59,518 nt of DNA from a virus. The position numbers and the translations under genes are program-made. The stretch is from the IMG/VR virus record IMGVR_UViG_3300025122_000016, positions 1 through 59,518 of that record; one strand, given 5' to 3'. This document shows positions 2,847 to 46,280 of the stretch, one piece after another. The notes beneath the pieces were generated by a model. The model was not told where the DNA came from. It made no database searches and was given only the letters and a program-made list of their open reading frames with translations. Positions within the stretch are counted from its first letter, which is position 1, and every line of letters begins with the position of its first letter.

Positions 2847-2850
2847 TGTA

Positions 2851-2967: not shown

Positions 2968-3341
2968 TGAAGGCCGCGATTATTATTTTATGGGCTTTGT
3001 TTTCTTTCGTTGATGCAAAAGCAGAAAAGCCAACCATATATAGAAATATGGTGACAATCCAAGTGCTGTGTAGTAGTGGTGGCCCTGAATTATTTATGAA
3101 AAAACTTCTTGATGATTATAATGAGAAGCCTGTTCACGCTATGGATCTCAGTTCACAAAGCGGGACGGATATGCAAATGTATATCACTGAGAATAGGAAT
3201 AATCCTAGTAGCACTCTCTTATTACATAATCGAGCGGGAGACAAGACCTGTATCTTCTGGACCGCAGAAGATTATCTAAAGACCATAGAAACAGAAAGTC
3301 TCCCAGCAAAGAAACCAGAGGGGATGAAACTTGAAAGTTGA
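2967..3341 (+). CDS. Exported protein with signal peptide, unknown
   Basis: 124 residues. The N-terminus (MKAAIIILWALFSFVDAKA) is a typical signal peptide with probable cleavage after AKA. The mature part is mixed polar, with two Cys (about residues 35 and 92) that could form a disulphide in the periplasm. No lipobox is present. It lies between two membrane/coiled-coil genes, so it may act in the envelope. No family recognised. Confidence 0.68.
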   Translation: MKAAIIILWALFSFVDAKAEKPTIYRNMVTIQVLCSSGGPELFMKKLLDDYNEKPVHAMDLSSQSGTDMQMYITENRNNPSSTLLLHNRAGDKTCIFWTAEDYLKTIETESLPAKKPEGMKLES

Positions 3342-28791: not shown

Positions 28792-28805
28792 CAGGAGATA
28801 GAACT

Positions 28806-29384
28806 ATGGACTGGACAAGTATACTTAGCGGCGCAGCTAGCGGGCTAGGAAGCATAGTGGGTGCTTTTTTCTCCGCTCTTGGTAGTGGGGGTGGTGGATC
28901 TGCCGCAGATGGGGCGCAAGCAGTATTCATGAACGGCTTTAGGCAGGGCGACGCAGGTAAAAAAATGCTTTCCTCTTCTAATTATTTTGAAATGGGGTCG
29001 GGAGAAGTTCCTTCTACATACGGTTGGCCAGATACATTCTATAATATGGATGCAAATAGTTTTTTTAAAAGCGCTTTCTCCCCGGGAGGGTGGCTTAATC
29101 CCGGCAAGCAGCCTATGACTCCGTATGAAAAAGCAGGGCTTTGGGCTGCAGTTGGTGGAGACCTAGCCGACCTATATGGAGAAAAAAGAGATCGTGATTT
29201 AGCGAAGAATGTGTTAAAGCTTAAAGAAAAAGGTGGAAGGCACCTTGGAACATCTCACAGCGATAAGCCCGGAGAGGGGGCTCCTTTCGATTTAGTGGCG
29301 GCTTATAAGGCTCAGGGGAAAGTAGCACCATTACGTAGGACAGTTTTAGGGGGCGAAAATACTGCCTTTGGGTTGTTATCATAA
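28806..29384 (+). CDS. Membrane-active internal virion protein candidate
   Basis: 192 residues. The N-terminus MDWTSILSGAASGLGSIVGA, then FFSALGSGGGGSA, is a hydrophobic Gly-zipper helix that could insert into host membranes, as T7 gp14-type ejection proteins do. The rest is polar. Stop overlaps the next start by one base. Role inferred from composition and place. Confidence 0.65.
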   Translation: MDWTSILSGAASGLGSIVGAFFSALGSGGGGSAADGAQAVFMNGFRQGDAGKKMLSSSNYFEMGSGEVPSTYGWPDTFYNMDANSFFKSAFSPGGWLNPGKQPMTPYEKAGLWAAVGGDLADLYGEKRDRDLAKNVLKLKEKGGRHLGTSHSDKPGEGAPFDLVAAYKAQGKVAPLRRTVLGGENTAFGLLS

Positions 29385-30103
29385 TGGCTATTAAATATCC
29401 TAGAAGTCCTCAAGCTCTTCCTGACCCATCTCCAAACGCAATGGCTGATGTTGTTGCCACAGAACAGGCATCTCCATTTGGCGAGGAAGTAACCGTAAGT
29501 GAGTCTGTAGAAACCCCGCTTGGCGCAGCTGGGAATAGCGTTGCTCAGACAGTGGTTGACCCATCAGAGATAGAGACTGCAAAAGCTGTAGCTAAATTTA
29601 TAAAAGATGAAGTAAACCAGTCTAAGGATATTATAGCTGACAGACTAACTAATTCTAGAGATCCTTATGTAGAAGTAGGAGCTATAGTTGCGCCTATAAC
29701 CAAGGATGAATTAGATGCAATTAGAGAAACCGAAATCCCAACCAACTACAACGCTATACCAGCTCTTTTGTCTAGCGGTAATGAAGCAGTTTTTAGAGTT
29801 GGCAAGCTTCAGCCAAACAAAAAAGAAAGAATGATATCATTAATGTCTGCCCTTGATTCATACTCTAATCTTGGAGACCCAGACTTTGGAAAAGAGCAGC
29901 AGATCAAGATGACTCAGGATATAATCCGCAGCTTGCAGGCCAACGAGAAAAATGCTGCTGCGTTAGCTGATATCTCACCACCCCCAGCACCTCTGGGACA
30001 GATGCAATCGCCACAACCTCCAACCTTACCACAAGAACAACCACTCCAACAGCAACCTAGAGGTCTTCTCGGGGCCTCTGTTCCTCAGCAGGATATTGCA
30101 TAA
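29384..30103 (+). CDS. Internal virion protein candidate, unknown
   Basis: 239 residues. Residues about 60-200 are helical and charged; the last 45 are Pro/Gln-rich (PPPAPLGQMQSPQPPTLPQE). Flexible Pro/Gln tails are frequent in ejected proteins that must pass the portal. Coupled to both neighbours by one-base overlaps. Confidence 0.65.
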   Translation: MAIKYPRSPQALPDPSPNAMADVVATEQASPFGEEVTVSESVETPLGAAGNSVAQTVVDPSEIETAKAVAKFIKDEVNQSKDIIADRLTNSRDPYVEVGAIVAPITKDELDAIRETEIPTNYNAIPALLSSGNEAVFRVGKLQPNKKERMISLMSALDSYSNLGDPDFGKEQQIKMTQDIIRSLQANEKNAAALADISPPPAPLGQMQSPQPPTLPQEQPLQQQPRGLLGASVPQQDIA

Positions 30104-32934
30104 TGGCATTTGAAGCTACTCAAAAGTTTTTTGCTAACGCCCAAGCTAGGCTTGATAAAGAAGCAGACTTCCTAAAAGGGGCTGCGTTCTCATTTGCTTT
30201 GAATGAATTCGTTGACAAAAGAACAGAAGCCAGAAAAGAAAAGCTAAGATTGCATGGAGTTGCAGCAACAGCCCATACGCAGAAAATAGATATCATTAAA
30301 AGTATGGTAGGTTCTTTGAATCAAGATATTAAGGCACTTTATAACTCGTTAAAAGGTGCTACTACCGCGTATCAAGCGGGTGGTAGCGCACTTGCAACCA
30401 CCTTAACCAGAATAGGCATGGGCAGCAAAGAGGAGCTTGCTGCTCATATACAAAATTTAAAAGATAATATCATAAGGAAGGAGGAGAAAAGGCAGGCATT
30501 CTATAGCGGGTGGTCAAGACTTGTAGGATATGGCGGGTCTATACCAGAAGCAAACAAGTTATGGAGTGGGAAAACTATTCCAACTACTGCAGCACTTACG
30601 GAGTCTTTAAAAAAATCTGCTGCAGTAGAGGCCGTTACTGAAGGAGCTGCAACCGATACACCTGCTACTACAGTTACCCCATCAGCTGTATCCCCTGCTG
30701 CTGGATCAAGCGTAGCTGATGAGTACCTTGCAATAGATCGACAAGTAGAAAAACTAAGAAAGAAAAACCTTGTAGCCGAAGAGAGAGAAAAGATAGTTCA
30801 AGATGTTGTTAAATTTGCTATAGGTGGGCAGGGTAGTAGTGGAAGGGATAAACTCGCTGGTGTTTTGAAAAGGAAAAAGGATAACGATCTTGATAAAAAC
30901 ATAGATCGCTGGCTGATTGATTATTTAAAAGGGTTTGAGTGGGGTAAACAATTCTTACAAGAATACGAGATTATACCGGGTGATACTAAAGATGCTGATA
31001 CCTTATGGACACAGGAATATGAAGCTGGTCAAACTCCTCGTTTATGGGAGCAGGAATATGAAGCTGGCCAAACTTCTCCGCAAACTGTACCGCCTATTCT
31101 CTATCCTAATTTCCAACATTTTGACGAGCTATCACCAGAGGAAGATGCTTGGGATCGAGGATTACTACAAAAAGGATGGGACAAAAGAGCCCAACAAGCC
31201 ATTCTTGCGCGAAATGTATCTGGTCTTCAGCAGTGGGATTATCTGCATCCAGATGAGGATGCTCCGCTAGAGTGGCCTCAAGAATATGGAGAGTTTGATC
31301 CACAGTATGGGGTGGTTCCTAGGGATATTTCAGAGGAAGCTGCGCTAGCCGAAGTGTCTGACGAAAGATGGGCTCCCGGCCCACGAACTAATGTTCCTGC
31401 AGAGTTGCGTGGGGATAGGCGTCGATACGAGGCGCGCAACTGGATGAAGAAAATCCCAATAGACGAATTTTATAGACTTATTGCAGCCACGATAAAAGAT
31501 AACAAAAAATATCTAGATGAATTGTCTGGAGCTGCTGGTGGTTCTTACTTATTATATCAGGGGTATGATGCAATCAGAGATGCCTTCCTTTCGCCAGACC
31601 AAAAAGAGCTAAAAGCATTATTAAGAGAAAGGGCGGCTGCCAAAAAGAGTCCCAAGAAGTATGGTACATGGACTAAAAAAGATGAGCAGAAACTAACCGC
31701 TCTAAAAAACAAGATTTCAACAGCTAAGAAAACCAAAGCCCGTGAAGCAAAAGGAAAAAGGGGTGGACTAAGTTTATATAAAGAAGATAGGTTTAGAAAA
31801 ATTCCATTCGGCAGTATAGCAAAAATTGGAACAGGTCTTGCTTTGTTAGGGTATGGTTTCTTTGCGGAGGCGAAAGAGCATGGTCTTGCACTTATGGAAG
31901 AGGCTGCGGCTGGAGATGAGAAAGCACTAGAGATCATTGGTGCTCTAAAAATAATATCAGAAGGTGCAGATAAAGTAATAACAACAGGGTTAGGAGTAGG
32001 TGGCGCTGCTATAGATGTAGCTACGGGTGCGGCAGGAGATCAAGGAACCTCTAGAATGCCGGGTCTGGAAAGGATGACAGGGCCGGAAATGGAAAGGATT
32101 CCACACGCTACAAGCCCGCAATATGGGAGCGGTGCGTACCGCGGCCCATTTAAAAGCCCAGCAGTAGGCCAGATTGATGCTGACTCAGATGCTTTAATGA
32201 ATTTAAGAGCTGAAGGATGGCTTGATGAAATTCAGTATAACAGACTTAAAGACCCTTCTATACCTGAAACAGTCAAGAGGAATATAGTGCAGCAGGCCAG
32301 AGACAGAATGGAAGGGGCGGGTGAGCCAGTTGGGCATATGACAGCTACCGAACATAGAGCTGCTAGAGTTATACAATATACAACACAACTGGTAAGTGAA
32401 GCTGAAAGTGGTGGCGATTATAATGCAGTTGGATTCTCTCCGGGAATGAAACAAGAAGAAAGCGACAGAGCTGTTACACAAAGAACTGTAGGGCAAAATG
32501 CTAAGGTGTATGGAGAAGAAAAGAATCTTGGCATGTACCAAATGGATGTCCCTCATATGCTCAGCTTGACAAGAAAGTATCTTGGTAGGGATAAGAAATG
32601 GTTAATGGACCAATCATTTACTCCAGAATTCCAAGATGAGATGTTTAATTTTACGCTTATAGACGCTGGTTTGATGAAGCTCGTTACGGAAGAAATTACT
32701 CCAGCTGAATTTTGGACAAATCTAATAAAGAAATATCCTAGTTTGCCGGGACCTAACCAGAAAAGAGGGGGTAGAACGGTGGGGGAAAATAAAGTAACAG
32801 ATACCATGACCATGGAAGAAAGGTCTGGAGATATCAAGGGGCTAATCAACAAGCGTGTTACTCCTTCTATGTTATGGAGTGCGGCGGACGAAGAAAGAAC
32901 TGGTATGCGTGGCGAAGGATTGCTAGGAAGATAA
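30103..32934 (+). CDS. Ejection protein with lytic transglycosylase domain
   Basis: 943 residues. Residues about 757-880 carry an SLT-type lysozyme-like domain: E-S-G-G-D-Y-N-A-V with likely catalytic Glu768, then NLGMYQMDVPHM. It can cleave peptidoglycan locally during DNA entry, like T7 gp16. The remainder is helical, with a hydrophobic helix near 570-595 (IAKIGTGLALLGYGFFAEA). Two tandem 13-residue repeats occur at residues 301-326 (LWTQEYEAGQTPR, LWEQEYEAGQTSP). It is the only visible muralytic domain in the genome, so it may serve entry only, or lysis too. Confidence 0.84.
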   Translation: MAFEATQKFFANAQARLDKEADFLKGAAFSFALNEFVDKRTEARKEKLRLHGVAATAHTQKIDIIKSMVGSLNQDIKALYNSLKGATTAYQAGGSALATTLTRIGMGSKEELAAHIQNLKDNIIRKEEKRQAFYSGWSRLVGYGGSIPEANKLWSGKTIPTTAALTESLKKSAAVEAVTEGAATDTPATTVTPSAVSPAAGSSVADEYLAIDRQVEKLRKKNLVAEEREKIVQDVVKFAIGGQGSSGRDKLAGVLKRKKDNDLDKNIDRWLIDYLKGFEWGKQFLQEYEIIPGDTKDADTLWTQEYEAGQTPRLWEQEYEAGQTSPQTVPPILYPNFQHFDELSPEEDAWDRGLLQKGWDKRAQQAILARNVSGLQQWDYLHPDEDAPLEWPQEYGEFDPQYGVVPRDISEEAALAEVSDERWAPGPRTNVPAELRGDRRRYEARNWMKKIPIDEFYRLIAATIKDNKKYLDELSGAAGGSYLLYQGYDAIRDAFLSPDQKELKALLRERAAAKKSPKKYGTWTKKDEQKLTALKNKISTAKKTKAREAKGKRGGLSLYKEDRFRKIPFGSIAKIGTGLALLGYGFFAEAKEHGLALMEEAAAGDEKALEIIGALKIISEGADKVITTGLGVGGAAIDVATGAAGDQGTSRMPGLERMTGPEMERIPHATSPQYGSGAYRGPFKSPAVGQIDADSDALMNLRAEGWLDEIQYNRLKDPSIPETVKRNIVQQARDRMEGAGEPVGHMTATEHRAARVIQYTTQLVSEAESGGDYNAVGFSPGMKQEESDRAVTQRTVGQNAKVYGEEKNLGMYQMDVPHMLSLTRKYLGRDKKWLMDQSFTPEFQDEMFNFTLIDAGLMKLVTEEITPAEFWTNLIKKYPSLPGPNQKRGGRTVGENKVTDTMTMEERSGDIKGLINKRVTPSMLWSAADEERTGMRGEGLLGR
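31003..31080 (+). repeat. Two 39-bp tandem coding repeats
   Basis: Units 31003-31041 and 31042-31080 are in frame and nearly identical, each coding for 13 residues (LWxQEYEAGQT..). They lie in the middle of the 943-residue ejection protein. Recent duplication by slippage is likely. Confidence 0.85.
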
Positions 32935-32937
32935 TCT

Positions 32938-35900
32938 ATGGCTGACAATCAAGAGCAAAAAATTTATCTATTTGATTACCCTGCTGTAACTAGGTGGGAT
33001 ACTCCAGTTGATCAATTGAATCAAGCATTGGATACTACAAATGTAAGTTCAGAAGAAAGAAGTCTTGCAGAAGCTTTCCATGGAGGTTACAAGAACCTTC
33101 AACATCTTGCAGCTTCATACATGATGAAAACAGGGAAGCAACTTCTTGACCCTGAAGGGTTTGAGCATGAGGGTATAGGTCGGTGGCTGTTTGAGACTGG
33201 CGAAGATTGGTATACAGAAGTAGGCGCTGACATTGCAGATGACAAACACAGGCCGCGATGGAAAGATGTTGAGGGCGTAGGAGAAACTAGCTCATGGTTT
33301 GCTGATGCTATAGCAGAACAAATACCATTGATGGCTCCCGGCGTGATTGGTGGTGGTCTTGTTGGTATTGCTGCAGCTGCCGCTGGTTGGCCTGTGCTTG
33401 CTGTAACAGGCGCTGTATGGGGGACTGTAGGCTTAACAAGTTACTTGCTGAATACTGGGGATGCTTACTCAAAGCAACTACAGAAGGGCGGAAAAATAGA
33501 TGAACATGTTGCTGACGTTGCTGGTGTTGTAGCTGCTGCTTTTGATGTTATCATACCCGGCGTTATAACTGGTAAGGTTGTAAAAGCTTTAGGTCCTAAG
33601 CTATCTAAGAATTTACGTGATGGATTGCAGAAAAATGTAGCTAAAAATTTAAGGCTAAATACTGCTGTAGGTACTAGGATAAAAAGAGGTATAACGTATG
33701 CTCTTGTTGAGGGATCTACAGAGTATCTGCAAGAAGGGTTGCTAGAGGCCAGTGTAAATTATGTAAATGATCTGCCTCCTTTTGATTATAGCCCAGAACA
33801 AAAAGAGATAATGACAGAGGCATTCTGGGTTGGATGGGGTGCCGGTGGTGCTTTTGGGGTGACTACCCCTACTGGTAGCAGGGCTCAGAGAAAAGCCCTT
33901 GAGGCTGAATCTGCGGCTGCTGATGCTGAAGTAGCAGCTAGTGAAGCTAAAGCTGCTGCAGATGAGGCTGTATTATCTGAGGCGGTTGATGAGTCTACTG
34001 CATTAGAGGCCATTGAAGAGGTGGCTGCTGAAGCTCCGCCGAGAAGTATGAGACGGAGAGGAACACTACCTACCACTGCACCACCTCCAGCTACTCCAGA
34101 ATTTGATACTGGGCTAGCTGGTATAGGGCCATTTGGAGACCCATTAGCTACTCCATATACTAGACCGGGGGATAGGGCTCCCCTTGATGCTGAGGAAGCA
34201 ACACTAGAAACTGGAGATCCTTATGCTCCAACAAGGATGGACAGAGTTAGATCTAGGAGAGCAGCTAGGAGAGCGGAAAGAAGCGAGGTTGATGATACCC
34301 TTGCTAGATTAGAGAGGGGTGTGGAGGCTGATGGCGGCATTCCTGTAATCACAGGACCAGCTGCTGAAACTGTTACTGCATCTGACGCTGGGTTGCTTGA
34401 CATAGGCGAACCAATACGCCCAATAAGGAAGAAGTTTGAAACAGCAGGTGAAACTGGTAGGGTACTAGGAAGGCGCAGAAGAGAGGCTAAAATAGAAGCC
34501 GAAGCTGCTGCTAGAGCTGAGCAAGAAAGATTAGACGCAATAGAAGCTGAGCGTATACTGAGAGAGAAAAGAGAAGCAGCTGACATAGAGGCTGAATCTG
34601 TTGCTTTAGCAGAGTCAAGTAATAGACAGATCCAAGATGCTGTTAATATGGCTAATACATTAATGGATCTAGTCCTAGCTAGAGGGTGGGACGAAGCTAG
34701 GACTATAAGATTTACTTCTCAAAAAGCTGGTGACATTTCTGCAAGCAATGGACAAGCTGCGGCTGATGCATTTAATGCTGTTATTTCACAAAGAATGGCA
34801 AGGGAGGCGGAGGCTAAAGCTGCTGAATCAGCGCCTACAGCTCCCAAAGCTCGCAGCCCAAAAGAAGAAGCTGAATTAGCTGCTACTATAGCAGAGCTGC
34901 AGGAAAGATTCGGTACGATATTTGAAGAAAGACCAGCCATTACACAGTTAGCTGTTTCAGCTACTCCTGAACCCGCTAAACCAAAGAAGAGACCTACAAC
35001 AAAAAGAACACCACCAGCTGTTGCACCCCCTAAAGAATCCGTTGTATGGTCTGATGATAGGGGTGTATTAACTGCTAATGTTGGTGTTGGTACGCCTGCA
35101 GAGGCAGAAGTAATAGTAAAAGAGGTTGATGGAGAGTGGGTTGCATGGGTTGGAGATGCAGAGGTAACTACTGATGGCATGCCAGAATCCGATCAAAAAG
35201 TATTTAAATCCTCAGAAGATGCAAAAAGATTTGTAATAAGACAGTATGGCTCTGAAGCTGAAGCAGCAGCCATACCAAAAGGAAGACCAAAAACGAAGGC
35301 GGCAACTGCTGGAGCTACCCCATCAGCTCCCTCATCAGCTCCGGCTCCGGCAGCTGCCCCTTCACCCTCACCAGCAAAGACTCCTACACCAAAAATAAAG
35401 AAGCCCGCTATTGGTCCTAACATGACCAAGAAGGAGTTTGATTATTATAGTACTCAAGAGGCTGGCGTTCTTTCTCAGAAGAGAATAAACTACATAGCCG
35501 CTAAAAGAGTTAGGGGAACTGAGTTAAATAAGTGGGAGAGCGGTGCTATTCTGTGGGATAATCAGGCAGAAAGAGTTGCTAGAGCAGAGGGTAGAATCCG
35601 TAAGGCAACGGAGAAGCCTGCTGAGAAGCCAGCGGCTGCCAGAAAACCTTTAAGGGTTCTTCCGTATTCCAAAGTAACAACTAATGAAGAAGGGATACCG
35701 CTCCAGATAGAAAAAAATGATGAAGGTACATTCAACTTACTTCTTGGTGTAGAAGATCAAAATGTAATTGGAGTGTACAAATCTAGATCAACTGCTAAAA
35801 ACGTAGCTGATGGCCTTACATCATCTGATGTAGGTAAGAGATTGGCAGCTCCTTTAAAGCTCGAGGCAAGAACTTTAAGAAGAGATTATTCTGATTGGAA

Positions 35901-38900
35901 GAAGCGAGCTGTTGCACTAAGAGGTATGGGTGAACAGAAAAGGGAACAGGCGGAGCGTGATGCAGAAACTTATAGAATATATAAAGGACCGTTACCAGTA
36001 CCTCGTAAGGTTGGTGAAAGATTTACTGAAGTAGCGGTTGGAGTAAAGGAACTACCTGACGGAAGGTATGAAGTAGTAGCGCATTATCATAAGAGAAGGG
36101 GTGTAGCTGTAAAGGGGTCTGTTACAGGAAAGAGAGCGGCAATACCTTTAGCTCTTTTTCATGCAGATACTAGGGCAGGTGCAGAGGCTATAAGAGATTC
36201 CATAATCACAAACCAACAAGAATTCTATGATCTTGTTAGGATGCACCATGAGGTAGGTAATAGATTTATAGAGATGGGGCGTGGTGATAATAGAGTTTTA
36301 TTCCATATGGATGAAGATGCCTTCTTGGAGAATTGGCTATCCAGAGTAAGCCCATCAGAGCGAGTAGAAATTGAAAATGCATTTACCTCACCTGATGTAC
36401 CTGTTGCGATTGATATCGAAGAAGCGACTGCAGAAGAGGCTGCTATGGCTGAGAAAGCTAAAGCTATTGCCTCAGCTAATAAAGCTAAAGCAGATCAGAG
36501 GGTATTAGATAGGGAAGCAACAGAAAAAGCTCTAGCAAAAGAGGAAAGAGATGCACGTATAGAAGCAGAGAACGCTAAAAAAAAAGTAGATGATGCGTTA
36601 GAAGCTGAAGAAGATATAGTTACAGTTGAGGGAGAGTTAGTTGATAAGCCAGTAGGTATTGTTACAGATTCTGACGCAAGAAGAGATGTAGCTGACTTTT
36701 TTGAACAAGTAGTGCTTGATCAAAGCTATCTCACCGATCAAGACTTTGAAAGAATTGGAGAGATTTATAGAGAGAACCCAATGATAGAGTTGGGTGATAG
36801 ACAGATTACTGCTCAGGAGTATATTCTTGAGCAGTATGAAGAGTCCGGCTTTAGTGATCAAATGATTGCGGAGCGTTTAGAGGTAGCCATACCTGATATA
36901 GATTCTGCGGCTACTCCTCCAATCATTCAATATCTAGAGGAATCCCCTCTTGATGGTATAGAATCTATATCTGCGAAGCTTGATTTAGCGCAACCTGAAC
37001 TTACAGTATCTCATGTCGGAGCAACCGATATCGAAGGAAGGACTGATGACGCTCTAAGATCTTTAGAGATGCAAGGCGATCTTAATAAGAGGCTTGGAAG
37101 AGGCTCACATTATAATCTCTCGCTACCATTTACAGAAACTAAGATTGATATTATTGAAGGCAATGACTTCTTAGAAGGTGCAGGGCATGGCGCTGATATA
37201 GTTGTTCTTCATAGGATTCCTGATGAGGCAACTGCCAGATCTTTAGATAGAGTAGCAGCTGAGATAGGGTACGAAGGAGGGATTTCAGAAGGGCATACTC
37301 TTGATAATTGGAAACAGGCTATATCTGATAGTGGCGCAGATCTTGTTTACATCTTTGGGTCTGGTTCTGCTGGAGACTTCAACGGCCTTGACTTTCAGAG
37401 AGTTCCCGGATATGAGATGGTTGGCGATTGGAACCAAGAAGGGGATATGGAGGCTGGCCAATATGCAGTGCTTAAGAAACTTAGAGAGCACCCTTGGAAG
37501 GATAGGGATCTAGACCCAGCATGGTTACTTGATAGTCCTGTAGAAGAGGAGCAGACAGCTGAGCAGCAAACTCAGGAGATGATTGAGAAGGAGCAAGCTA
37601 CTGCAGAAAGAGAAGCTGCAGAAGCTGCAGAAGAGGCTGCTATAGAGCAAGAGATTGCTGATGCAGAGCAAGATTTGATCATAGGGCAAGAGCCTACTCT
37701 TGATTCCGATGAGTTAGCAATAACTGATTGGGATGCTACAAAAGAAATAGAAGCAGAGATAAGAAACGAGAGAAGACTAGCTCAGAAAAAGACTGACGCT
37801 AATAGAGTTGAGCCTTCTTATGTTTTAGGTATGACTCCAGAAGAAATAAAAAGATCTCTAAAGAGACGACCATCCGAAGGCGGCTATTCTGCCGTAGAAA
37901 TAAATACATTATTACAAAATATAGTTTCATGGGGTGATGAAATATCTACCATTCGTGGTGGAGAAGAAGTCCTCATTGATCCGTCTATAACCCAAAAAGC
38001 TACACGTAAAGCAAAGACAGAAGCAATACTTGATTGGCATAAGCTTGCTAATGATTATGTTATTCTGCGGGATTCTGATCAGGATGCATTCGATGTACCA
38101 GAGATGGAGATAGATGAAGCTCCAGAGTTTATGGTTGAGAAGACTGATGATGGTATGTTTCTTAAAAAGGATGAAGGGGCTTTAGTACACAATGTAGTAA
38201 AGAATAATACTGAGGTAAAATCTAGATTCAGAAAGGCTATGCACCGGATCTGGGGCATAACAGCCACGAAAAGGATGGAGAAGATTGGCTTTATAAAGTA
38301 TGTAACTTTCGATGAAGCAAAGGAACTTATACCATCTTTCTTAGATCGCGAAGGATTAAGAACAAAGATAACAGATAGATACTTAGCCTATTCAGCGCCT
38401 ACTGGAGGTATAATATTTATAACAGATAACCTTCGCAAATACTCTCCATTAGATACTGAATCTGTAAGAGGGATTGTATTTCATGAGTTAGGCGTTCATT
38501 TTGGTAAGGGGATATTCTCCAATAGAGAGCTTGCTAGTATACTAGATCTAACAAAAGATATGTGGCGTATGGGAAATCCTGAAATCAATGAAGCTTACGA
38601 TAAGGTTGTCAGATCTTACTTACCTAAAGAAGCCTTTACCGCTCAGGGGTTGCTCAATAAGAGGGGTGTTGGCTGGTTTAGAGGCTATCAGGAGTGGGGG
38701 AAAGTAGGCGAGGAAGCAGCACTTGTCGGAGAGGGGGCCGCTGTGTTTTGGGAGGAGGTTCTTGCTCATTTTGTTGAGAATAGTTCTCCAGATATTAATC
38801 CAACTTTATGGCAGAAAATACAAACATCTTTTAAATTGTTTATGCGTAGGTTGCTATCTACTTGGACCGATCAGGATGTCATTGATAACTTTACCACAAA

Positions 38901-41900
38901 TGATTTAAAGAATACTATTTCTTATGCATTGCGTCATGTCCCTGATATGGCTCTGGCGCGGTATGGTGACACTAGAGCTATTGAAAGATTAAGGAATAAG
39001 AAGAGGGCTGATTTCTTAGAAGAGTCTGTAGTAAAAAGACCATTGTATCATTACACTACAGCTGACTTTCACTACCCTGTATATGAGTTTACAGAGTTAG
39101 GAATGCATCTAGGCACTATGGATGCAGCCATTAGGATAGGCTTAAAGGGTAATGAACATCAGACAATGGATAACTACGGTGCATTAAGAGGTCAGCCGGG
39201 TATTGATTTTATAGATGACCCCTACGATAGCAGTCTGTATAATAGGAATTTAAAAAATGTTGTTCTTAATTGGGGTAGGCCCTTTCCGGTACAGAGAGCT
39301 GGAAAAAGAACTCCTGTATCTCTAAACAATAAATCCTTGATAGTTCTTGATCCGAGAACTGAAGAGTATTATTATGTTTCCAAAGGAAGGAATTTTATCA
39401 TACCAGTTGCCGGTAATGAGGAAGAGATATCTACAAGACAGAAAATAGAGATGTCCTCAAGAGAAGCAAATCGGTTGACAACAGATGCTAATACTGCAGA
39501 GTTTATATCGGAAAAGCTAGGCAGTGCTGAAGGAAGGGGTATTGAGTGGGCTCAGTTTGAAGATAAATACGTTATCTTTCCTCAAGGTGGTTCTATAAAG
39601 GAAGGGTATGCAAGCATAAAAAATCCATTAAGGATACCGATTGATCTATACGCATGGCATATGCCATCCTCATGGGGAAGGTTTATTGATCTTGAGTCAT
39701 TAACCGATCAATCTGTTATTGATGCTTTAGGATCGGAGTGGTCTCAAGCTAATCGATATACTGGTCCTTCTCCTATAGCTGCTCAGATGAGTAAAGAGAA
39801 ATATGAGGAGTGGAATGACTTTATAGTAAGAAATCTAAAGCATCAAGCATTTTTAAATTCTGAGATAGCCAAGGCTAATCAGAAAGTTTGGGACAATCAG
39901 GCAGAGGAGCAAAGGGGAGAAGTAGAGGGCATTGATCATGAATTAGTAGATAAGAGAGATAGTCTAGAGGAAGACAAAGAGATTCACTTCAAAGAATTTA
40001 GTAGGTATATACGGGATCTTCTAACTGATTTTGGATTCGACTCCATAGAGTATATCAACTACCACGAGCATGAACTTAGTAGATCATATATAGTCTTTAA
40101 TGATGGCCAATTCAAAACAACAGACTCTTTGGCGTGGAGGCCAGAGAATTTAGGCATGGGATTCAAGAAGGTTCTTGATGAAACAGTTGCTGATGAAGTT
40201 AAAAAGACTATGCCTCTGGCTGTTGAGTCAACAAAGCAATTAGGTAAAGGTATTGTTGGTAATGCTAGAGCGGATGGATTCTTAACTAAGATGCAGAAAT
40301 TGGTAGAACCATTGGCTACTGTTCCCGGGTGGGAAGAGCTTGAGGTTGGCAGGATGCTTGCAAAAGGCGAGTCTACAATTGCAGTTAACCAAGCTAGAGT
40401 AATATTTGATATTCTTAATCAGGCTAATAGAAAAGAAAAGAAGGCTATCTTTGAGTACTTCACTACAAGAGGTGCCTCTCCAGATAGCCTACCAACAAGA
40501 ACGGTTGATTACGCAGGGGTAGAGTCAGTACTTGGGGGAAGGAGAACTAGTGGGATAGGGGTTGATCCAGATAATATTCATAATGTAAGCATAAAAGATA
40601 AGGTAATTGAAGTAAAGAAATCCATAGAGGGGTATGGAGAAGAACTAGTAGACAGGGGATTGATAAGTCAAGATCAGTATTCAGAGCTGAAAGGCAAGTA
40701 TTTACCACAGCTGTATCTTAAATATCTAGTAGATGACAGCATGCGTAGGTCTTTAGGTACGGGACTAAAGGCATCTACTTTGGATTATACAAAGGCTAGA
40801 AAGGTTCACGATGAGTGGATTGCTCAAATTCTTTTTGGCAAGATTGATGATCCAGCATTCTTGGCGTCAAGATATGTTGGTCAGGTTGGGAGAGACATAT
40901 CGATTATAAAGTACTTGCAATTTATAGCTTCTGACCCCGGCAATAACAAGTGGGTAATACCACAACAGCTTGTAAGTTACAGGGGCATCAATGGAACAGC
41001 AGACTTTTTCCTTAATGAGTCAGCTGGCCTAAGCCATAGGGCAGATATAACAGAGAAGACTGATCCAGAAAGAGCTAAAGAGATGCGTACTATTTCATCT
41101 GAAATGAATAGAGCTGCTAATAGTGTGCAAGATTTTAGCGTGTACAATCAAAAGATGTATAAGCGTATGCCTTCTCATCCAAGGTATGGTGCTATGCGAG
41201 GTCTGTTAGTGCGAAAAGAAATATATGATGACCTTGTTGGATTGTCGACATCCGGCGAGATGTCGTTACCTCAAAGCTTTCTAAGTGATAGAGGCTGGGG
41301 CACCAAGATAACTCAAGTGTTTAAATATACTAGAGTGCCAATGAATATACCAACACAGGCTCGCAACTTTGTGTCTAACATGATACTGTTACATACATCT
41401 GGAGCTGGCGGGGTGCTTGGTTTGGGTATTCCTAGACTGATAACAAAGTCAATGAGTGATATTGTTAATAATGGCAAGTATATGCAGATAGCTAGGAAGT
41501 ATGGAATTGAAGGAACCACATTTGCTACTGAAGAGTTAGCAAGGATAGACAGGGAGTTACTTGCAGTAAAGGCAAGCGGGGATACGTTTGAAGGAGCCAA
41601 AGCCAGAGCCGCTATATTTTTTGATAACTGGATCGACATAGCAGGAAGAGCATACCAGAAATCAGAAGTGCTTTTTAAGGTAGCAAAAATAATGGATGGA
41701 ATGGAGAAGGGGCTTAAGGAATCTGATGCTGTACGGGCGGCAAACAATGCTATCATAGACTACAGCCAAGTATCCCAAGGCATAAGGTATTTGCGTAGAG
41801 TCCCATTCGGTTCTCCATTTATAACATTTAATGCTAAGGTCCTACCTCAGTTGTTGAGAAACCTTAAGAGTAATCCATTGCATTTCTTGCCTTATGTTGC

Positions 41901-42684
41901 GCTGCCCTATATAATAAAGGAAGCTTTAATTGCACAGCATGAGGATTTAGATGACGAGGATGTTAATATTCTAAAGAGGTTGTTGCCTGAGTGGGCTAGA
42001 GAAAGGGCTGGAATATATTTCCTACCATTTAAAGATGAGAACAATAGATGGACCGCGCTTGATCTAGGGTACATGTTACCATGGACGGCGCATTTTGAAC
42101 TGTCTAAGAACTTAGGTAAGGGAGAGTTCGGTAAAGCTTTTGGCAATACAGGTATGTTTACTGGGCCAATGGACCTTGTTGTTGGATTGAAGACAAACCA
42201 AGATCCATTCTTAAATAAAGAGATATGGAATGATTCTGATCCAGCGGCGCAACAGTACCAAGATATCCTAGGCTTTATAACAAGTTATATAGTTCCTCCA
42301 TTCATGTCCCCAAGGAATCAATCAGGAGATACAATAACTGGCGGCGGTCCAATCATAAAGTTAATGATGGCCTCTGGATATATGGATGGTAATATAGATT
42401 CTGATGGGCTACCTAGGTATACTGTACCACGGTCGTGGGCTTCCATGTTTGGGTTTAATACATATAATGTAAATGAACTTTCCGCCGCAAGAAATGTTCA
42501 GTGGATGGAGAGGGAGGCTCTTAGGATAGAGAAGCGGTTAAACAATTTATTACTTAATCCTAATCTATCCATGGAAAAAAGACAGAAGCTTTATACAGCG
42601 TATGTTGAGCATCTAGCAGATAAGGTTAGGAAGACTTACGAGTACTATGATAGCGTGAAGGGCTATGAAAAAATGTTCCAATAA
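32938..42684 (+). CDS. Giant polyvalent protein, 3248 residues
   Basis: One open frame of 9747 bases, a sixth of the genome. Seen in order: a hydrophobic Gly/Ala segment at about 131-171; Ala/Glu coiled coils (about 321-365, 520-555, 1162-1222); a Pro-rich linker (about 797-825); an unknown domain at about 1361-1520 (IFGSGSAGDF). A zincin motif H-E-L-G-V-H follows at 1849-1854. At about 2036-2360 is a region like the ADP-ribosyltransferase of polyvalent proteins (YHYTTADF at 2037-2044, GMHLGT, IKNPLRIPIDLYAW, SYIVFNDGQFK). A long C-terminal region at about 2440-3120 resembles large-polyvalent-protein domain LPD38. Such proteins are thought to be injected with DNA and to disarm host defences. 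Placed after the transglycosylase protein, it is probably ejected too. Domain borders are estimates. Confidence 0.85.
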   Translation: MADNQEQKIYLFDYPAVTRWDTPVDQLNQALDTTNVSSEERSLAEAFHGGYKNLQHLAASYMMKTGKQLLDPEGFEHEGIGRWLFETGEDWYTEVGADIADDKHRPRWKDVEGVGETSSWFADAIAEQIPLMAPGVIGGGLVGIAAAAAGWPVLAVTGAVWGTVGLTSYLLNTGDAYSKQLQKGGKIDEHVADVAGVVAAAFDVIIPGVITGKVVKALGPKLSKNLRDGLQKNVAKNLRLNTAVGTRIKRGITYALVEGSTEYLQEGLLEASVNYVNDLPPFDYSPEQKEIMTEAFWVGWGAGGAFGVTTPTGSRAQRKALEAESAAADAEVAASEAKAAADEAVLSEAVDESTALEAIEEVAAEAPPRSMRRRGTLPTTAPPPATPEFDTGLAGIGPFGDPLATPYTRPGDRAPLDAEEATLETGDPYAPTRMDRVRSRRAARRAERSEVDDTLARLERGVEADGGIPVITGPAAETVTASDAGLLDIGEPIRPIRKKFETAGETGRVLGRRRREAKIEAEAAARAEQERLDAIEAERILREKREAADIEAESVALAESSNRQIQDAVNMANTLMDLVLARGWDEARTIRFTSQKAGDISASNGQAAADAFNAVISQRMAREAEAKAAESAPTAPKARSPKEEAELAATIAELQERFGTIFEERPAITQLAVSATPEPAKPKKRPTTKRTPPAVAPPKESVVWSDDRGVLTANVGVGTPAEAEVIVKEVDGEWVAWVGDAEVTTDGMPESDQKVFKSSEDAKRFVIRQYGSEAEAAAIPKGRPKTKAATAGATPSAPSSAPAPAAAPSPSPAKTPTPKIKKPAIGPNMTKKEFDYYSTQEAGVLSQKRINYIAAKRVRGTELNKWESGAILWDNQAERVARAEGRIRKATEKPAEKPAAARKPLRVLPYSKVTTNEEGIPLQIEKNDEGTFNLLLGVEDQNVIGVYKSRSTAKNVADGLTSSDVGKRLAAPLKLEARTLRRDYSDWKKRAVALRGMGEQKREQAERDAETYRIYKGPLPVPRKVGERFTEVAVGVKELPDGRYEVVAHYHKRRGVAVKGSVTGKRAAIPLALFHADTRAGAEAIRDSIITNQQEFYDLVRMHHEVGNRFIEMGRGDNRVLFHMDEDAFLENWLSRVSPSERVEIENAFTSPDVPVAIDIEEATAEEAAMAEKAKAIASANKAKADQRVLDREATEKALAKEERDARIEAENAKKKVDDALEAEEDIVTVEGELVDKPVGIVTDSDARRDVADFFEQVVLDQSYLTDQDFERIGEIYRENPMIELGDRQITAQEYILEQYEESGFSDQMIAERLEVAIPDIDSAATPPIIQYLEESPLDGIESISAKLDLAQPELTVSHVGATDIEGRTDDALRSLEMQGDLNKRLGRGSHYNLSLPFTETKIDIIEGNDFLEGAGHGADIVVLHRIPDEATARSLDRVAAEIGYEGGISEGHTLDNWKQAISDSGADLVYIFGSGSAGDFNGLDFQRVPGYEMVGDWNQEGDMEAGQYAVLKKLREHPWKDRDLDPAWLLDSPVEEEQTAEQQTQEMIEKEQATAEREAAEAAEEAAIEQEIADAEQDLIIGQEPTLDSDELAITDWDATKEIEAEIRNERRLAQKKTDANRVEPSYVLGMTPEEIKRSLKRRPSEGGYSAVEINTLLQNIVSWGDEISTIRGGEEVLIDPSITQKATRKAKTEAILDWHKLANDYVILRDSDQDAFDVPEMEIDEAPEFMVEKTDDGMFLKKDEGALVHNVVKNNTEVKSRFRKAMHRIWGITATKRMEKIGFIKYVTFDEAKELIPSFLDREGLRTKITDRYLAYSAPTGGIIFITDNLRKYSPLDTESVRGIVFHELGVHFGKGIFSNRELASILDLTKDMWRMGNPEINEAYDKVVRSYLPKEAFTAQGLLNKRGVGWFRGYQEWGKVGEEAALVGEGAAVFWEEVLAHFVENSSPDINPTLWQKIQTSFKLFMRRLLSTWTDQDVIDNFTTNDLKNTISYALRHVPDMALARYGDTRAIERLRNKKRADFLEESVVKRPLYHYTTADFHYPVYEFTELGMHLGTMDAAIRIGLKGNEHQTMDNYGALRGQPGIDFIDDPYDSSLYNRNLKNVVLNWGRPFPVQRAGKRTPVSLNNKSLIVLDPRTEEYYYVSKGRNFIIPVAGNEEEISTRQKIEMSSREANRLTTDANTAEFISEKLGSAEGRGIEWAQFEDKYVIFPQGGSIKEGYASIKNPLRIPIDLYAWHMPSSWGRFIDLESLTDQSVIDALGSEWSQANRYTGPSPIAAQMSKEKYEEWNDFIVRNLKHQAFLNSEIAKANQKVWDNQAEEQRGEVEGIDHELVDKRDSLEEDKEIHFKEFSRYIRDLLTDFGFDSIEYINYHEHELSRSYIVFNDGQFKTTDSLAWRPENLGMGFKKVLDETVADEVKKTMPLAVESTKQLGKGIVGNARADGFLTKMQKLVEPLATVPGWEELEVGRMLAKGESTIAVNQARVIFDILNQANRKEKKAIFEYFTTRGASPDSLPTRTVDYAGVESVLGGRRTSGIGVDPDNIHNVSIKDKVIEVKKSIEGYGEELVDRGLISQDQYSELKGKYLPQLYLKYLVDDSMRRSLGTGLKASTLDYTKARKVHDEWIAQILFGKIDDPAFLASRYVGQVGRDISIIKYLQFIASDPGNNKWVIPQQLVSYRGINGTADFFLNESAGLSHRADITEKTDPERAKEMRTISSEMNRAANSVQDFSVYNQKMYKRMPSHPRYGAMRGLLVRKEIYDDLVGLSTSGEMSLPQSFLSDRGWGTKITQVFKYTRVPMNIPTQARNFVSNMILLHTSGAGGVLGLGIPRLITKSMSDIVNNGKYMQIARKYGIEGTTFATEELARIDRELLAVKASGDTFEGAKARAAIFFDNWIDIAGRAYQKSEVLFKVAKIMDGMEKGLKESDAVRAANNAIIDYSQVSQGIRYLRRVPFGSPFITFNAKVLPQLLRNLKSNPLHFLPYVALPYIIKEALIAQHEDLDDEDVNILKRLLPEWARERAGIYFLPFKDENNRWTALDLGYMLPWTAHFELSKNLGKGEFGKAFGNTGMFTGPMDLVVGLKTNQDPFLNKEIWNDSDPAAQQYQDILGFITSYIVPPFMSPRNQSGDTITGGGPIIKLMMASGYMDGNIDSDGLPRYTVPRSWASMFGFNTYNVNELSAARNVQWMEREALRIEKRLNNLLLNPNLSMEKRQKLYTAYVEHLADKVRKTYEYYDSVKGYEKMFQ

Positions 42685-42967
42685 CAAGCACCAATTGGTT
42701 GAGGTTGAGTGGTATGATATAATAGCTACTGCTGGTTGGGAGAAGGACGACGAGGTGAACTGTCCTTTGTTTATTTCGGTGGGATATTTAATAAAGCAGG
42801 ATGATTCGTTTGTTAAAATAGCTACAACAAAGGATGAAAAGAATGATTGGTATGGCTGGCATGTCTTTCCATCTGGTTGCGTAAAAAAGATACGCCCCCT
42901 TTCGGGGGCGGTAATTGAAGATGCTCCTGTTACCCGAAAAACAGTACAGACAAAACGGAAGAAATAA
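42665..42967 (+). CDS. Conserved small phage protein, last forward gene
   Basis: 100 residues. VEVEWYDIIATAGWEKDDEV, with CPLFISVGYLI, KIATTKDEKNDWYG and HVFPSGCVKKI, fits a small phage protein family of unknown function that often carries two Cys. It overlaps the giant gene by 20 bases. Its 3-prime part contains the hairpin that terminates the reverse-strand unit, so the coding sequence (KIRPLSGAVIED) is also a terminator. Confidence 0.75.
   Translation: MKKCSNNKHQLVEVEWYDIIATAGWEKDDEVNCPLFISVGYLIKQDDSFVKIATTKDEKNDWYGWHVFPSGCVKKIRPLSGAVIEDAPVTRKTVQTKRKK
42883..42910 (-). terminator. Intrinsic terminator of the reverse-strand unit
   Basis: On the reverse strand, CGCCCCC, a GAAA tetraloop and GGGGGCG (42910 down to 42893) form a very stable stem. 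TATC and six Ts follow (42888-42883). It lies about 108 bases beyond the stop of the metallophosphoesterase gene and inside the convergent last late gene. The forward strand lacks a T-run after the stem, so forward transcripts should not stop here. Confidence 0.85.
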
Positions 42968-43017: not shown

Positions 43018-43806
43018 CTATCCATATGTTGAGAGGATTTTACGTTGTGTTACCGATCTTATCTCATCATAATATCCTTCATTGTCTAGGCCCTCCAGCA
43101 TTATGACTCCACGCCACCAAGTATATTCCGTATCCCTGCACCAGCTTTCTGAATATTTTGGGTGTGAATAACATCCAGCAGATAGGCCAAATATTTTTTG
43201 CCCGTCTGGCCTTGTTTGTTCTGCGTGGTTGTATAGGTGGGAATGGCCTTGAACAGCAGAGCAGTGTAGCTTTGAAACAAGTTGGTGACCTATATGCATT
43301 GAGCTAATAGGCCTGCCAGATACTCCTGTTGTGAAGTAGTGAGAGAAGACTATACCTTTGATAGACAGACAATGCTTAAACTCAGTTATCTTCCATCCAA
43401 ATTTGGAGTACTGTAAGTCTTCAATTCCTATAGTCCCATCTAGTTCTGGTGATGTATTTATAGCCCTAAGTATTCTATCTTCGTGGTTGCCTAGGCACAT
43501 GTTAAGTTTAGGCTTGTATTGTTTTTCTTTGTTCTTTTTCTTTTGCTGATTAAACTTCTTTAATGGGAGAAACAATCTTTCTTGTGCATCTATAGCTGAC
43601 TCGATATCTTTTTTAAATCTTCTTCCTTCAAATCCTTTTGTTCCTTTGTCGTAAGAAGAAAGGCTACTCATGTCTGCAAGGTCACCGAGACAGGTTATGT
43701 ATTCTGGTTTTTCATTGACTATTAATTCTCCAAGAGCCTCAAACCTGTCGTTATCATAGTCAGGTGAGGCGTGACAGTCTGGGATGATAAGCATATTGCT
43801 CGTCAT
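43018..43806 (-). CDS. Calcineurin-like metallophosphoesterase
   Basis: 262 residues from ATG 43806 (AGGAGAACAGAT site). Metal-binding motifs in order: D-C-H near the start (LIIPDCHASP), GDLAD, GNHED, and GHSH near the C-terminus, which together hold two metals. Possible substrates are phosphoesters of nucleic acids, nucleotides or proteins. It follows the ribonucleotide reductase stop by 10 bases and ends the reverse unit. Phage members of this family include DNA-repair and RNA-processing enzymes; the specific role is unknown. Confidence 0.82.
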   Translation of the reverse strand: MTSNMLIIPDCHASPDYDNDRFEALGELIVNEKPEYITCLGDLADMSSLSSYDKGTKGFEGRRFKKDIESAIDAQERLFLPLKKFNQQKKKNKEKQYKPKLNMCLGNHEDRILRAINTSPELDGTIGIEDLQYSKFGWKITEFKHCLSIKGIVFSHYFTTGVSGRPISSMHIGHQLVSKLHCSAVQGHSHLYNHAEQTRPDGQKIFGLSAGCYSHPKYSESWCRDTEYTWWRGVIMLEGLDNEGYYDEIRSVTQRKILSTYG

Positions 43807-43816
43807 ATCTGTTCTC

Positions 43817-45661
43817 CTATAGCTCGCATGCATCAGCTGTGCATGCTAATTCTTGGCTTCCTATTGTGTAGTCATCTTCTTCAGAGATGCTATCCCAATC
43901 TATAGGGCTCTTTGTTTTCTCATATAACTCACCCCATACATCAGTTGTTACTTCTTCGTATGGAGCCGCCTCATAAATATGATCGTCGTCCGCTTTAGGA
44001 AGAAAGCTTAGACCGCTAATTATATCAAAGTTCTCCCAACACCAAGCACCAACAGATAGCCATTCGTCTCCCCCAACATAGATGGTAACGCTTGGCTTGT
44101 GCTCGCACCAGTAGAGAGCAAACTTCTTCCATATCTCAAGATGATCTAGCGCGGTTATTTGATTTCTTGTTATAGATTTTGTAGATGCGCCCATTGGAAA
44201 CTCAAAAACTATGGCGTCTTTATTGTATGGGTCAGTAATGTAGGGCTTTCCAGATTTAATCAACGCTTGATTAAGGGGGTCTTTAATGTCCTGTCTTACT
44301 CGTCTAATATAATACTGGGCATAAGCTGGATGCAGGCCGGACCCAGATACTCCAACTAACTGGCTAACTGTACCAGAAGGCTTGATACATGTAACTGCCA
44401 CAGATTGATTTACCTTTAGCTTCTTTGCCCATATCTTATTCTGCTCTACAGCGTGATCCCTAAGACTCATCAGCTCTTCTGGTGTTGCATGAAGAATTTC
44501 TGGGCAATCAAACACGCCTGTAAGGCTTACACCTAGCAATCTCTCCTCTTCTGCATTGCGTTTCCATATTGGGCGCACATATCTAAAGTCTGTTAGAGTG
44601 GACTGGTAGGTTCCTAGTATAGTAGCTAGTCTTACCTTTCTTTTAACATCTTCTAATGTATCTTTAGCTCTAAGCACTACTTCTGATAAATTGCACAAAC
44701 CGGAACTTCGAAGTATCACCTCACTGCAGGGATTGCAACCGAAGTCATGGTCTGTATCTCTGCGATCAGGGGCGAGGTCTTTAGCTGCTTGACGGTTAAA
44801 GATTCCTCTCTCTCCACTCTTGGATTCATATAGAGATATCCATTCACGCATGAATATACCAATGTCTGGTCTCTCTGTGTAACATACAGAGTTATTTGAC
44901 AGTGCTCTTTGTGGTTCATCAATCCACCATTGGCCCATCTTGGCTCGTTGCATTCTCTCATCAGTTAGATTGCTTAAGCTTAGTTCAGCGGCCCGGCGTA
45001 CACCCCCTACAACTACAGCCTCACCATTAAAGCATAAAAGATCATGGCATTCTATACTGTTTAATCTACGGCCAGACGCTCCCTTGAATATTCTTATGTA
45101 TTGGTTGAATAGTTTCTTAAGAGGTTCAGGGCCTGACGCTCTGCCTCCAAATGTTTTAAGCCTAGCACCAGATGGTCGTATTCTTGAGTAGTCAATCTCA
45201 GGTATCCTTCCTTGGTACAGCAGGCTAATCAACTCTCTTAGTGCGCTTGCCCATCCTATCTTGCTATCCCTTACAACAACAGTTGTTTCTGTTGAGTTAA
45301 ATGAGTCAGCTACATCAGGTAGCTTGCTTATGAACTGTCTCTCTACGCTAAACCCAACCCCGGTACCGCATAAAAGAACATACAAGTTCTCATCAAAAGC
45401 TCTCACATGATCAACAGCTATGAAGGAACAATTGTATCCTGCCATGTTATCTCTGGACAATGCTGGTCCCGCAGTCATTAATGCTCTCATGCTTGGCATT
45501 ATTTCCATGTCCAAGATAGCTTGCTTTACTTCATCGGGTAGAGGTTTGTCCCAAAAGTTACAGTATCTATCTACTGTTTCCTCCCAAGTTTCTCTACGCC
45601 CTTCCTTGTCAAGGTATCTAGCGTACCTACTTTTGTGTATGAATTTTTGATACTCGTTCAT
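43817..45661 (-). CDS. nrdJ: Adenosylcobalamin-dependent ribonucleoside-triphosphate reductase (class II)
   Basis: 614 residues from ATG 45661 with an AGAGGGAAAAG site; a longer frame upstream lies in the dUTPase gene. The active site N-P-C-S-E places Asn310, Cys312 and Glu314. The second active Cys323 is 11 residues on (GLCNLSE), the spacing of the monomeric Lactobacillus enzyme. The C-terminal swinging Cys pair is CTADAC. MPSMRALMTAGPAL and YNCSF also fit. It makes dNTPs from NTPs using vitamin B12, oxygen-independently. Together with dUTPase it supplies DNA precursors and implies B12 in the host or its surroundings. Confidence 0.92.
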   Translation of the reverse strand: MNEYQKFIHKSRYARYLDKEGRRETWEETVDRYCNFWDKPLPDEVKQAILDMEIMPSMRALMTAGPALSRDNMAGYNCSFIAVDHVRAFDENLYVLLCGTGVGFSVERQFISKLPDVADSFNSTETTVVVRDSKIGWASALRELISLLYQGRIPEIDYSRIRPSGARLKTFGGRASGPEPLKKLFNQYIRIFKGASGRRLNSIECHDLLCFNGEAVVVGGVRRAAELSLSNLTDERMQRAKMGQWWIDEPQRALSNNSVCYTERPDIGIFMREWISLYESKSGERGIFNRQAAKDLAPDRRDTDHDFGCNPCSEVILRSSGLCNLSEVVLRAKDTLEDVKRKVRLATILGTYQSTLTDFRYVRPIWKRNAEEERLLGVSLTGVFDCPEILHATPEELMSLRDHAVEQNKIWAKKLKVNQSVAVTCIKPSGTVSQLVGVSGSGLHPAYAQYYIRRVRQDIKDPLNQALIKSGKPYITDPYNKDAIVFEFPMGASTKSITRNQITALDHLEIWKKFALYWCEHKPSVTIYVGGDEWLSVGAWCWENFDIISGLSFLPKADDDHIYEAAPYEEVTTDVWGELYEKTKSPIDWDSISEEDDYTIGSQELACTADACEL

Positions 45662-45674
45662 TCTTTTCCCTCTA

Positions 45675-46280
45675 TTACCAGCGCCCACCAATTGGAACAT
45701 CTGCAAGTGCGTCATCATCTTTAGCTACATCTTCATCACTACTGCCAAACCCTTCTTCTCCCCTTTCTCTGTGGGATGTTATGGTTGCGTTTAGCTTTGG
45801 TTCTTCGTATGCATTGTATACTAATTGTGCTATCTTATCGCCCCTGTCTATGTCAAATGGCATTGGGCTTAGATTGGCTAGGATAACTTTGATTTCTCCT
45901 TTGTAGTCCGGGTCTATTGTTCCCGGGGAATTTAGAACAAACACTCCTTTAGATGCTAGGCCACTCTTTGATCTTATCTGCGCCTCCAATCCTTTAGGCA
46001 TAAATAATCTTATGCCGGTACCTATTAACTTCCATTCAAGTGGCTTTATTGCGTGATCTTCCGTGCTGTATAGATCATACCCTACAGCATCCTTGCTTCC
46101 TTTAGATGGGGTGCTGAAGTTGTTATCAGTTAATTCTATTGTAACTTCAAACTTATCTTCACTGCTAATGGCGCTAGCAGTTTTCATTTGATTGTCCCTC
46201 CATTCATTAGCGAGGTCTCTTAGGTTTCTTGCGGCATCCAGAATAGTCTCACCATCTTTGTACTCTTTATTAGAATGCAT
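45675..46280 (-). CDS. dut: dUTP diphosphatase
   Basis: 201 residues, AGAGGAAG site before ATG 46280. All five trimeric dUTPase motifs are visible: AVGYDLYS, RSKSGLA, GTIDPDYKGEI, RGDKIAQLV and RGEEGFGSS. Hydrolyses dUTP to dUMP, keeping uracil out of phage DNA and feeding dTMP synthesis. An extra N-terminal helix (about 50 residues: DAARNLRDLANEWRDN) and an acidic C-terminal tail (EDVAKDDDALADVP) extend it beyond the usual 150 residues. Directly upstream of the reductase. Confidence 0.93.
   Translation of the reverse strand: MHSNKEYKDGETILDAARNLRDLANEWRDNQMKTASAISSEDKFEVTIELTDNNFSTPSKGSKDAVGYDLYSTEDHAIKPLEWKLIGTGIRLFMPKGLEAQIRSKSGLASKGVFVLNSPGTIDPDYKGEIKVILANLSPMPFDIDRGDKIAQLVYNAYEEPKLNATITSHRERGEEGFGSSDEDVAKDDDALADVPIGGRW

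Follow-up and report, generated by a model that had tools for sequence, protein, structure and literature searches.

The 59,518-base record IMGVR_UViG_3300025122_000016, from an uncultured short-tailed phage, encodes a giant protein of 3248 residues. It is probably a polyvalent protein of the phage type that travels in the head as an internal or ejection protein and enters the cell together with the DNA. Sequence comparison and structure prediction indicate a module plan in which a hydrophobic N-terminal domain, a zincin-like domain of the HEXXXH type and an LPD38-like C-terminal anchor are accompanied by cargo that varies among kin (an ART-like domain, a domain designated here as domain X, and others). 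An entry core plus variable cargo is the best reading of this plan. The giant protein is a divergent new member of an already known type, and interest is added by an anchor common to internal-virion-type proteins and by the undescribed domain X.

The giant gene and its relatives

The window refers here to the whole record at its full length. According to its ORF map, rightward genes dominate positions 1-42967 and the remaining genes are leftward. The giant gene is the penultimate gene of the rightward late operon, on the same strand and in the same operon as the portal, major head protein and tail genes, and its position is similar in the window, the related contigs L097 and L089, MW202615 and PTXU04. 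The late genes of the record include a portal protein of 734 aa (phrog_1216, 3e-30), a major head protein (phrog_1357) and a tail protein. Relatives of the portal are found in Vibrio phages (37%) and in Pseudomonas, Escherichia and cyanobacterial phages. The product of another gene (25713-27659, + strand, 648 aa) matched the phrog_5107 'amidase' family (3e-14), and its place among the tail genes suggests a tail protein. The features of the gene, the protein and the adjacent genes are listed below, with amino acid positions (aa) of the giant protein unless stated.

30103-32934, + strand: upstream partner gene, 943 aa; its aa ~726-893 are 27-30% identical to the genes directly before the giant gene in L097, L109 and L122
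32925-32930, + strand: AGGAAG, Shine-Dalgarno-like, ahead of the giant ATG and within the 3' end of the preceding gene
32938-42684, + strand: coding sequence of the 3248-aa polyvalent protein; ATG start, no internal stop
33073-33882, + strand: Gly/Ala-rich hydrophobic N-terminal domain, aa 46-315 (phmmer, BLAST and hhalign to kin)
33883-35637, + strand: Ala/Pro/charge-rich linkers, aa 316-900, unalignable among kin
35635-36597, + strand: block common to L097, aa 900-1220, 28% identity
36658-36897, + strand: block common to L089, aa 1241-1320, about 60% identity
36997-37479, + strand: domain X (SHVGA ... FLEGAGHGAD ... HTLxNW), apparently mobile, aa 1354-1514 (identity to kin)
38158-38967, + strand: zincin-like metallopeptidase domain of the HEXXXH type, aa 1741-2010 (kin alignment, hhalign)
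38482-38499, + strand: HELGVH, aa 1849-1854; HE[LIVM]GVH is invariant in kin
38752-38757, + strand: E1939-E1940 in FWEEVLAH, candidate third zinc ligand; EE is invariant in close kin and EEVLA also occurs in PTXU04 gp25
39025-40122, + strand: ART-PolyVal-like domain with long insertions, aa 2030-2395 (alignment to L122, L070 and L097)
39049-39051, + strand: H2038 (strand 1, 'LYH'), candidate ART active-site residue from alignment only
39106-39108, + strand: H2057 ('GMHLGT'), likely position of the HYD2 strand-2 Tyr by alignment
40066-40068, + strand: E2377, acidic residue six positions ahead of the serine in 'SYIVF'; kin retaining the strand all have E or D here
40258-42681, + strand: C-terminal anchor module, a distant LPD38 relative, aa 2441-3248 (~800 aa; kin, fold and profile-profile comparison)
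42665-42967, + strand: 100-aa gene directly 3' of the giant gene, 50-54% identity in L097 and L089

An earlier note on this DNA had described a single 3248-residue protein filling a sixth of the genome, with a HELGVH site at H1849, an ART-like region, a C-terminal polyvalent domain and an unnamed domain at about 1361-1520. All of these were recovered. The frame is intact and takes up 9747 of the 59,518 nt (16.4%), the HELGVH site is confirmed and is of the HEXXXH type, and the unnamed domain corresponds to domain X. The other two regions lie at aa ~2030-2395 and ~2441-3248, backed by kin matches to PF18760 below the cut-off and by LPD38 profile-profile and fold matches, respectively.

By composition, the protein divides into globular blocks and Ala/Pro/charge-rich linkers. 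Searches of Pfam, NCBIfam, PHROG and PDB sequences with the whole protein and with segments gave nothing above cut-off, a DNA-level search of phages gave no match, and no prophage copy was confirmed in bacterial genomes with the few search patterns used. The only clear relative in the phage collection is a 2166-aa protein of MW202615.1 (Podoviridae ctwe8250), with 25% identity over aa 2472-3124. Its gene (27793-34293; L002:15942-22442) is labelled 'DNA repair protein', yet it encodes a polyvalent protein with zincin and anchor.

Alignment of the C-termini of the window protein and the MW202615.1 protein led to 80 IMG/VR loci, and a wider alignment to further, closer ones. The closest kin with an overlapping plan are L097 (3697 aa), L109 (2884 aa), L089/L087 (2349 aa) and L122, while L136, L086, L084, L083 and L110-L115 are partial kin. 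Since the blocks of the giant protein are kept as such in independent contigs and the charged linkers between them cannot be aligned, this conservation argues that the blocks are not due to chance.

Conserved modules and variable cargo

The anchor was present in more than 100 contigs and formed the C-terminal end of all complete proteins, which fall at ~1030-1233 aa (L003-L025, L058, L061-L067) and at ~1600-4100 aa. Its AlphaFold model was confident (pLDDT 83, pTM 0.84) and gave 55 fold matches in BFVD at E<=0.001, among them one PTXU04 protein. Many of these matches are labelled large polyvalent protein, LPD38, ART-PolyVal, Zeta toxin, RelA/SpoT or LT_GEWL. Foldseek against the PDB with the same model gave none at E<=0.001, and the VIA rows were mostly helical-hairpin matches at the C-terminal end of the anchor. 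In hhalign, the anchor aligned with a profile of seven LPD38-type C-termini (PTXU04 gp25, JC1 gp69 and five others) with P 97.4, E 1e-11 and a score of 106, the maximum score in 20 column shuffles being 21.5. The Pfam LPD38 model (PF18857) had no match in the window or its kin, whereas PTXU04 gp25 scores 1.6e-38. Because this model misses the window protein, the anchor is termed a remote relative of LPD38 and not a PF18857 member.

The shorter proteins connect the anchor with internal virion proteins. Seven of the nine short anchor proteins tested share 27-49% identity with the N-terminus of LUZ100 gp47, annotated as 'putative internal virion D, similar to T7 Gp16', and one matches phrog_342, an internal virion protein with an endolysin domain. 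Homology of the anchor itself to T7 gp16 was rejected (hhalign P 1.3), and LUZ100 gp47 likewise has no detectable match to the anchor. The window protein also differs from T7 gp16 in the SLT domain, absent from the former in Pfam and scoring 1.7e-31 in the latter.

Elsewhere, the same anchor carries ART-PolyVal (L094 over the cut-off, L070 below it) and LPD23 (L072). In the 2163-aa protein of L082, aa 698-809 match GGDEF (diguanylate cyclase, E 1.3e-8); it would be notable if an enzyme of cyclic dinucleotides were ejected. A 2044-aa protein of a Helicobacter pullorum prophage (BK070136.1, 19665-25799) also has a clear anchor copy (hhalign P 98.6), which links the anchor to the giant proteins of Helicobacter phages.

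Judged from the alignments, the zincin-like domain is the most constant enzyme-like part of the giant protein. There are three residues between the E and the second H of HELGVH, which makes it HEXXXH and not the canonical HEXXH. HE[LIVM]GVH and the downstream EE are kept in L097, L109-L115, L122, L089, L086 and L136, in which the whole domain is only ~28-37% identical. By hhalign, the zincin profile matched the HE[VI]xGH group located ahead of the anchor in L070, L082, L094, L096, L100, L102 and L103 (P 96.6, E 7e-10) and the HEIIVH region of PTXU04 gp25 (P 96.3, E 1.6e-9), and MW202615 carries HEXXH at the equivalent place. The HEXXXH form has been described by Iyer et al. for a subset of polyvalent MPTases (PMC5512222). 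The window zincin fits the pattern of that subset, HE-x3-H with a conserved downstream Glu, as does PTXU04 gp25. MPTase-PolyVal (PF18818) gave no match in the window or kin at E<=5, and other described MPTase clades may escape this model. Among the HMM and structure searches by segment that the earlier note had proposed, the anchor gave a confident model with many fold matches, and there was no direct match above the cut-off. The joint model of zincin and ART-like domain was of low confidence (pLDDT 50), too poor to use, and its PDB search gave no significant match.

Kinship indicates that the ART-like domain is real. PF18760 (ART-PolyVal) had no match in the window protein, and in aligned kin it matched below the cut-off (L122, 9e-7, profile positions 9-134 of 140; L070, 1.6e-6; L097, 3.5e-4). 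The active site of ART-PolyVal and Tox-ART-HYD2 is formed by H (strand 1), Y (strand 2) and D (strand 5). The window would have, by alignment only, H2038, a His at the second position and a Glu at E2377. H2038 is kept in L097, L109, L122, L070 and L136 and is missing in L089, L086 and L115. The first ART strands are missing from L089 and L086; in L115, zincin and anchor are both intact, and the entire domain between them is gone. Because it is eroded or deleted in these close kin, the domain is optional and dispensable accessory cargo. In the fold comparison of the poor zincin and ART model, the only ART-related rows were PARP (Z 2.4-3.0).

Domain X, by its distribution, is a genuine, mobile and undescribed domain. 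Its identity is 53% in L136, in which the order of domain X, zincin, ART and anchor is that of the window, and 46-47% in L137 and L138, two distinct phage proteins of polyvalent appearance with no anchor detected. Searches of Pfam, phage records and bacterial genomes gave nothing similar to it. A macro-domain reading was discarded: the lone match, to macroH2A.2, is at chance level (E 0.14), PF01661 had no match in domain X (its controls ring in 9 genomes) and hhalign to YmdB gave P 0.1. With this, an undescribed mobile domain of ~160 aa has been isolated that is worth a structure.

The N-terminal domain matched L080 (1e-8) and L006 (2e-4) by phmmer, L122 (6e-13) by BLAST and L089 (P 95.8) by hhalign. 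Since hhalign to PTXU04 gp25, P0002, L109 and L097 was not significant, only the window, L122, L080, L089 and, weakly, L006 are assigned to one N-terminal family.

Regarding the pace of change, the leftward genes beside the giant share 76-82% identity with their counterparts in L097/L089, whereas the anchor of the giant protein is 46-53% and the zincin ~30% identical, and the N-terminal half is mostly unalignable. Because its identity to L097/L089 is far below that of the flanking genes, the giant changes much faster than its neighbours, apparently by module exchange.

Predicted function and rival explanations

Blocks delimited by kin (zincin-like, ART-like, domain X and LPD38-like), with predicted activities, fit the description of a polyvalent protein. 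As in the proteins with MPTase, ART and LPD domains described by Iyer et al. 2017, the domain mix includes the HEXXXH MPTase subset and ART-PolyVal, in a late-gene context; unlike that set, the anchor and domain X of the window fall outside its Pfam models and the second ART position is His, not Tyr. The nearest studied counterpart is gp25 of Escherichia phage PTXU04 (2197 aa, putative polyvalent), which also has a hydrophobic N-terminal stretch, charged linkers, a HEXXXH zincin with downstream EEVLA and an LPD38-type C-terminus, and whose gene likewise lies towards the end of the late genes. It differs in having a direct PF18857 match and no detected ART-like domain or domain X; the two proteins are beyond the reach of BLAST and their N-terminal stretches cannot be aligned. 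JC1 gp69 and Bcep22 gp75 of Burkholderia phages (DarB-like, ~4500 aa) are likewise giant late-gene proteins with an LPD38-type end, the C-terminus of JC1 gp69 being one of the seven in the profile aligned with the anchor, but their cargo is an LT-like domain, a methylase-helicase and LPD3 instead of ART and domain X. The MW202615.1 protein has a zincin ahead of the anchor and the same late-operon position, with HEXXH instead of HEXXXH and other N-terminal cargo.

Knockdown of PTXU04 gp25 translation strongly lowers plating on laboratory E. coli, and this Fit gene was validated by plaque assay; gp25 is also among the genes whose expression is toxic or interferes with infection (PMC11879866). 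JC1 gp69 (4515 aa), with an LT-like N-terminus and LPD38 at 4195-4401, was detected with 51 unique peptides in CsCl-purified virions by mass spectrometry (PMC9144972). The link from these data to the window protein is one of remote homology only. They are in line with that part of the earlier note which takes the giant for a polyvalent protein, and one that is probably ejected: its gene lies among virion genes, and of the homologues with an LPD38 end, JC1 gp69 is carried in the virion and PTXU04 gp25 is needed for infection.

In such a packaged protein, the anchor could dock the giant in the virion or the ejection apparatus and the hydrophobic N-terminal part could act at the envelope. The zincin might cut its own polypeptide, before or after ejection, freeing cargo, and the ART-like domain and domain X might act on host targets early in infection. 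Our confidence falls from packaging and ejection through the envelope role of the N-terminus, autoproteolysis and host modification to a dedicated anti-defence role. Autoproteolysis, by analogy with what Iyer et al. proposed for P1 DdrB (PMC5512222), falls somewhat short of an even chance, and that the ART-like domain and domain X modify the host is put forward tentatively, as a doubtful step.

An anti-defence role has been proposed for polyvalent proteins (PMC5512222), and the giant could be in the first place an injected weapon that disables restriction, CRISPR or abortive systems by means of its zincin, ART-like domain and domain X, all other parts serving only for delivery. The fast-changing cargo, in a protein far less conserved than its neighbours in L097/L089, and the presence of ART-PolyVal, GGDEF and LPD23 on the same anchor elsewhere would agree with it. 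Nevertheless, entry and ejection are placed first because PTXU04 needs its homologue in common laboratory E. coli and because the anchor is likewise the end of T7-gp16-like internal virion proteins that lack such cargo. Moreover, none of the cargo domains matches a tested anti-defence protein, and the ART-like domain can be eroded or lost in close kin. This explanation is considered rather unlikely, and the 'multi-tool injected anti-defence system' of the earlier note goes beyond the evidence. The erosion of the ART-like domain, namely the absent strand-1 His in L089/L086 and the missing domain in L115, would also suit a structural or ejection protein with relic enzyme-like domains, with an inactive ART and a zincin serving as a structural fold, as would the long insertions and the His at the likely HYD2 Tyr position. 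However, every close relative retains HE..GVH and EE while the remaining zincin drops to about 30% identity, and most ART-bearing kin retain H2038 and the acidic residue at E2377, which makes relic domains improbable. Finally, non-structural genes also occur near the end of late operons, where the giant gene lies, and the protein could stay in the infected cell as a non-packaged late protein, either an assembly protease or a host-takeover factor; the finding of LPD38-ended JC1 gp69 in purified virions and the occurrence of the anchor in proteins like internal virion protein D argue against it, and it is very improbable.

The reading as a packaged polyvalent protein has a bolder extension, speculative and unlikely in its full form. 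The anchor would be a general 'delivery anchor' of short-tailed phages, a single module for docking and ejection. Some lineages would join it to an N-terminus of the T7-gp16 type and others to exchangeable effector cassettes, which a HEXXXH protease within the protein would set free; domain X would be an undescribed enzyme directed at the host. If true, the ejection machine would amount to a modular system for injecting proteins. More generally, one C-terminal module, remotely LPD38, unites many unannotated giant phage proteins as well as ending internal-virion-type proteins, and the injection of polyvalent proteins becomes directly testable, the anchor predicting loading into the virion and the HEXXXH site predicting cutting of the chain.

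Neighbouring genes and individual contigs

The 943-aa upstream gene had no Pfam match; judged by eye, the ESGGDYNAVG...LGMYQM segment at its C-terminus seems lysozyme- or transglycosylase-like.

Some relatives showed irregular reading frames. In L122, the giant gene is broken at 9293-9348 into frames of 2278 aa and 423 aa that jointly cover the anchor, due to a frameshift or an assembly error. Stop-codon recoding was considered for L103 (11999-12382), which would give a 4057-aa reading of the giant protein, and was rejected: stops occur only within the final ~380 bases, as both TGA and TAA, and a frameshift or the gene end is more likely. L119, a 60.9-kb contig with a 3339-aa frame, contains HELGVH and two HELLH motifs with only a marginal anchor signal, and may encode a polyvalent protein that carries three peptidase domains.

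Downstream of the late operon, the ribonucleotide reductase gene of the window (43817-45718, - strand) is 80% identical in L089 and only 24% in L097 and 26% in L109, while the phosphoesterase beside it (43018-43833) is 76-82% identical in all three. This looks like an in-place replacement of the ribonucleotide reductase gene.
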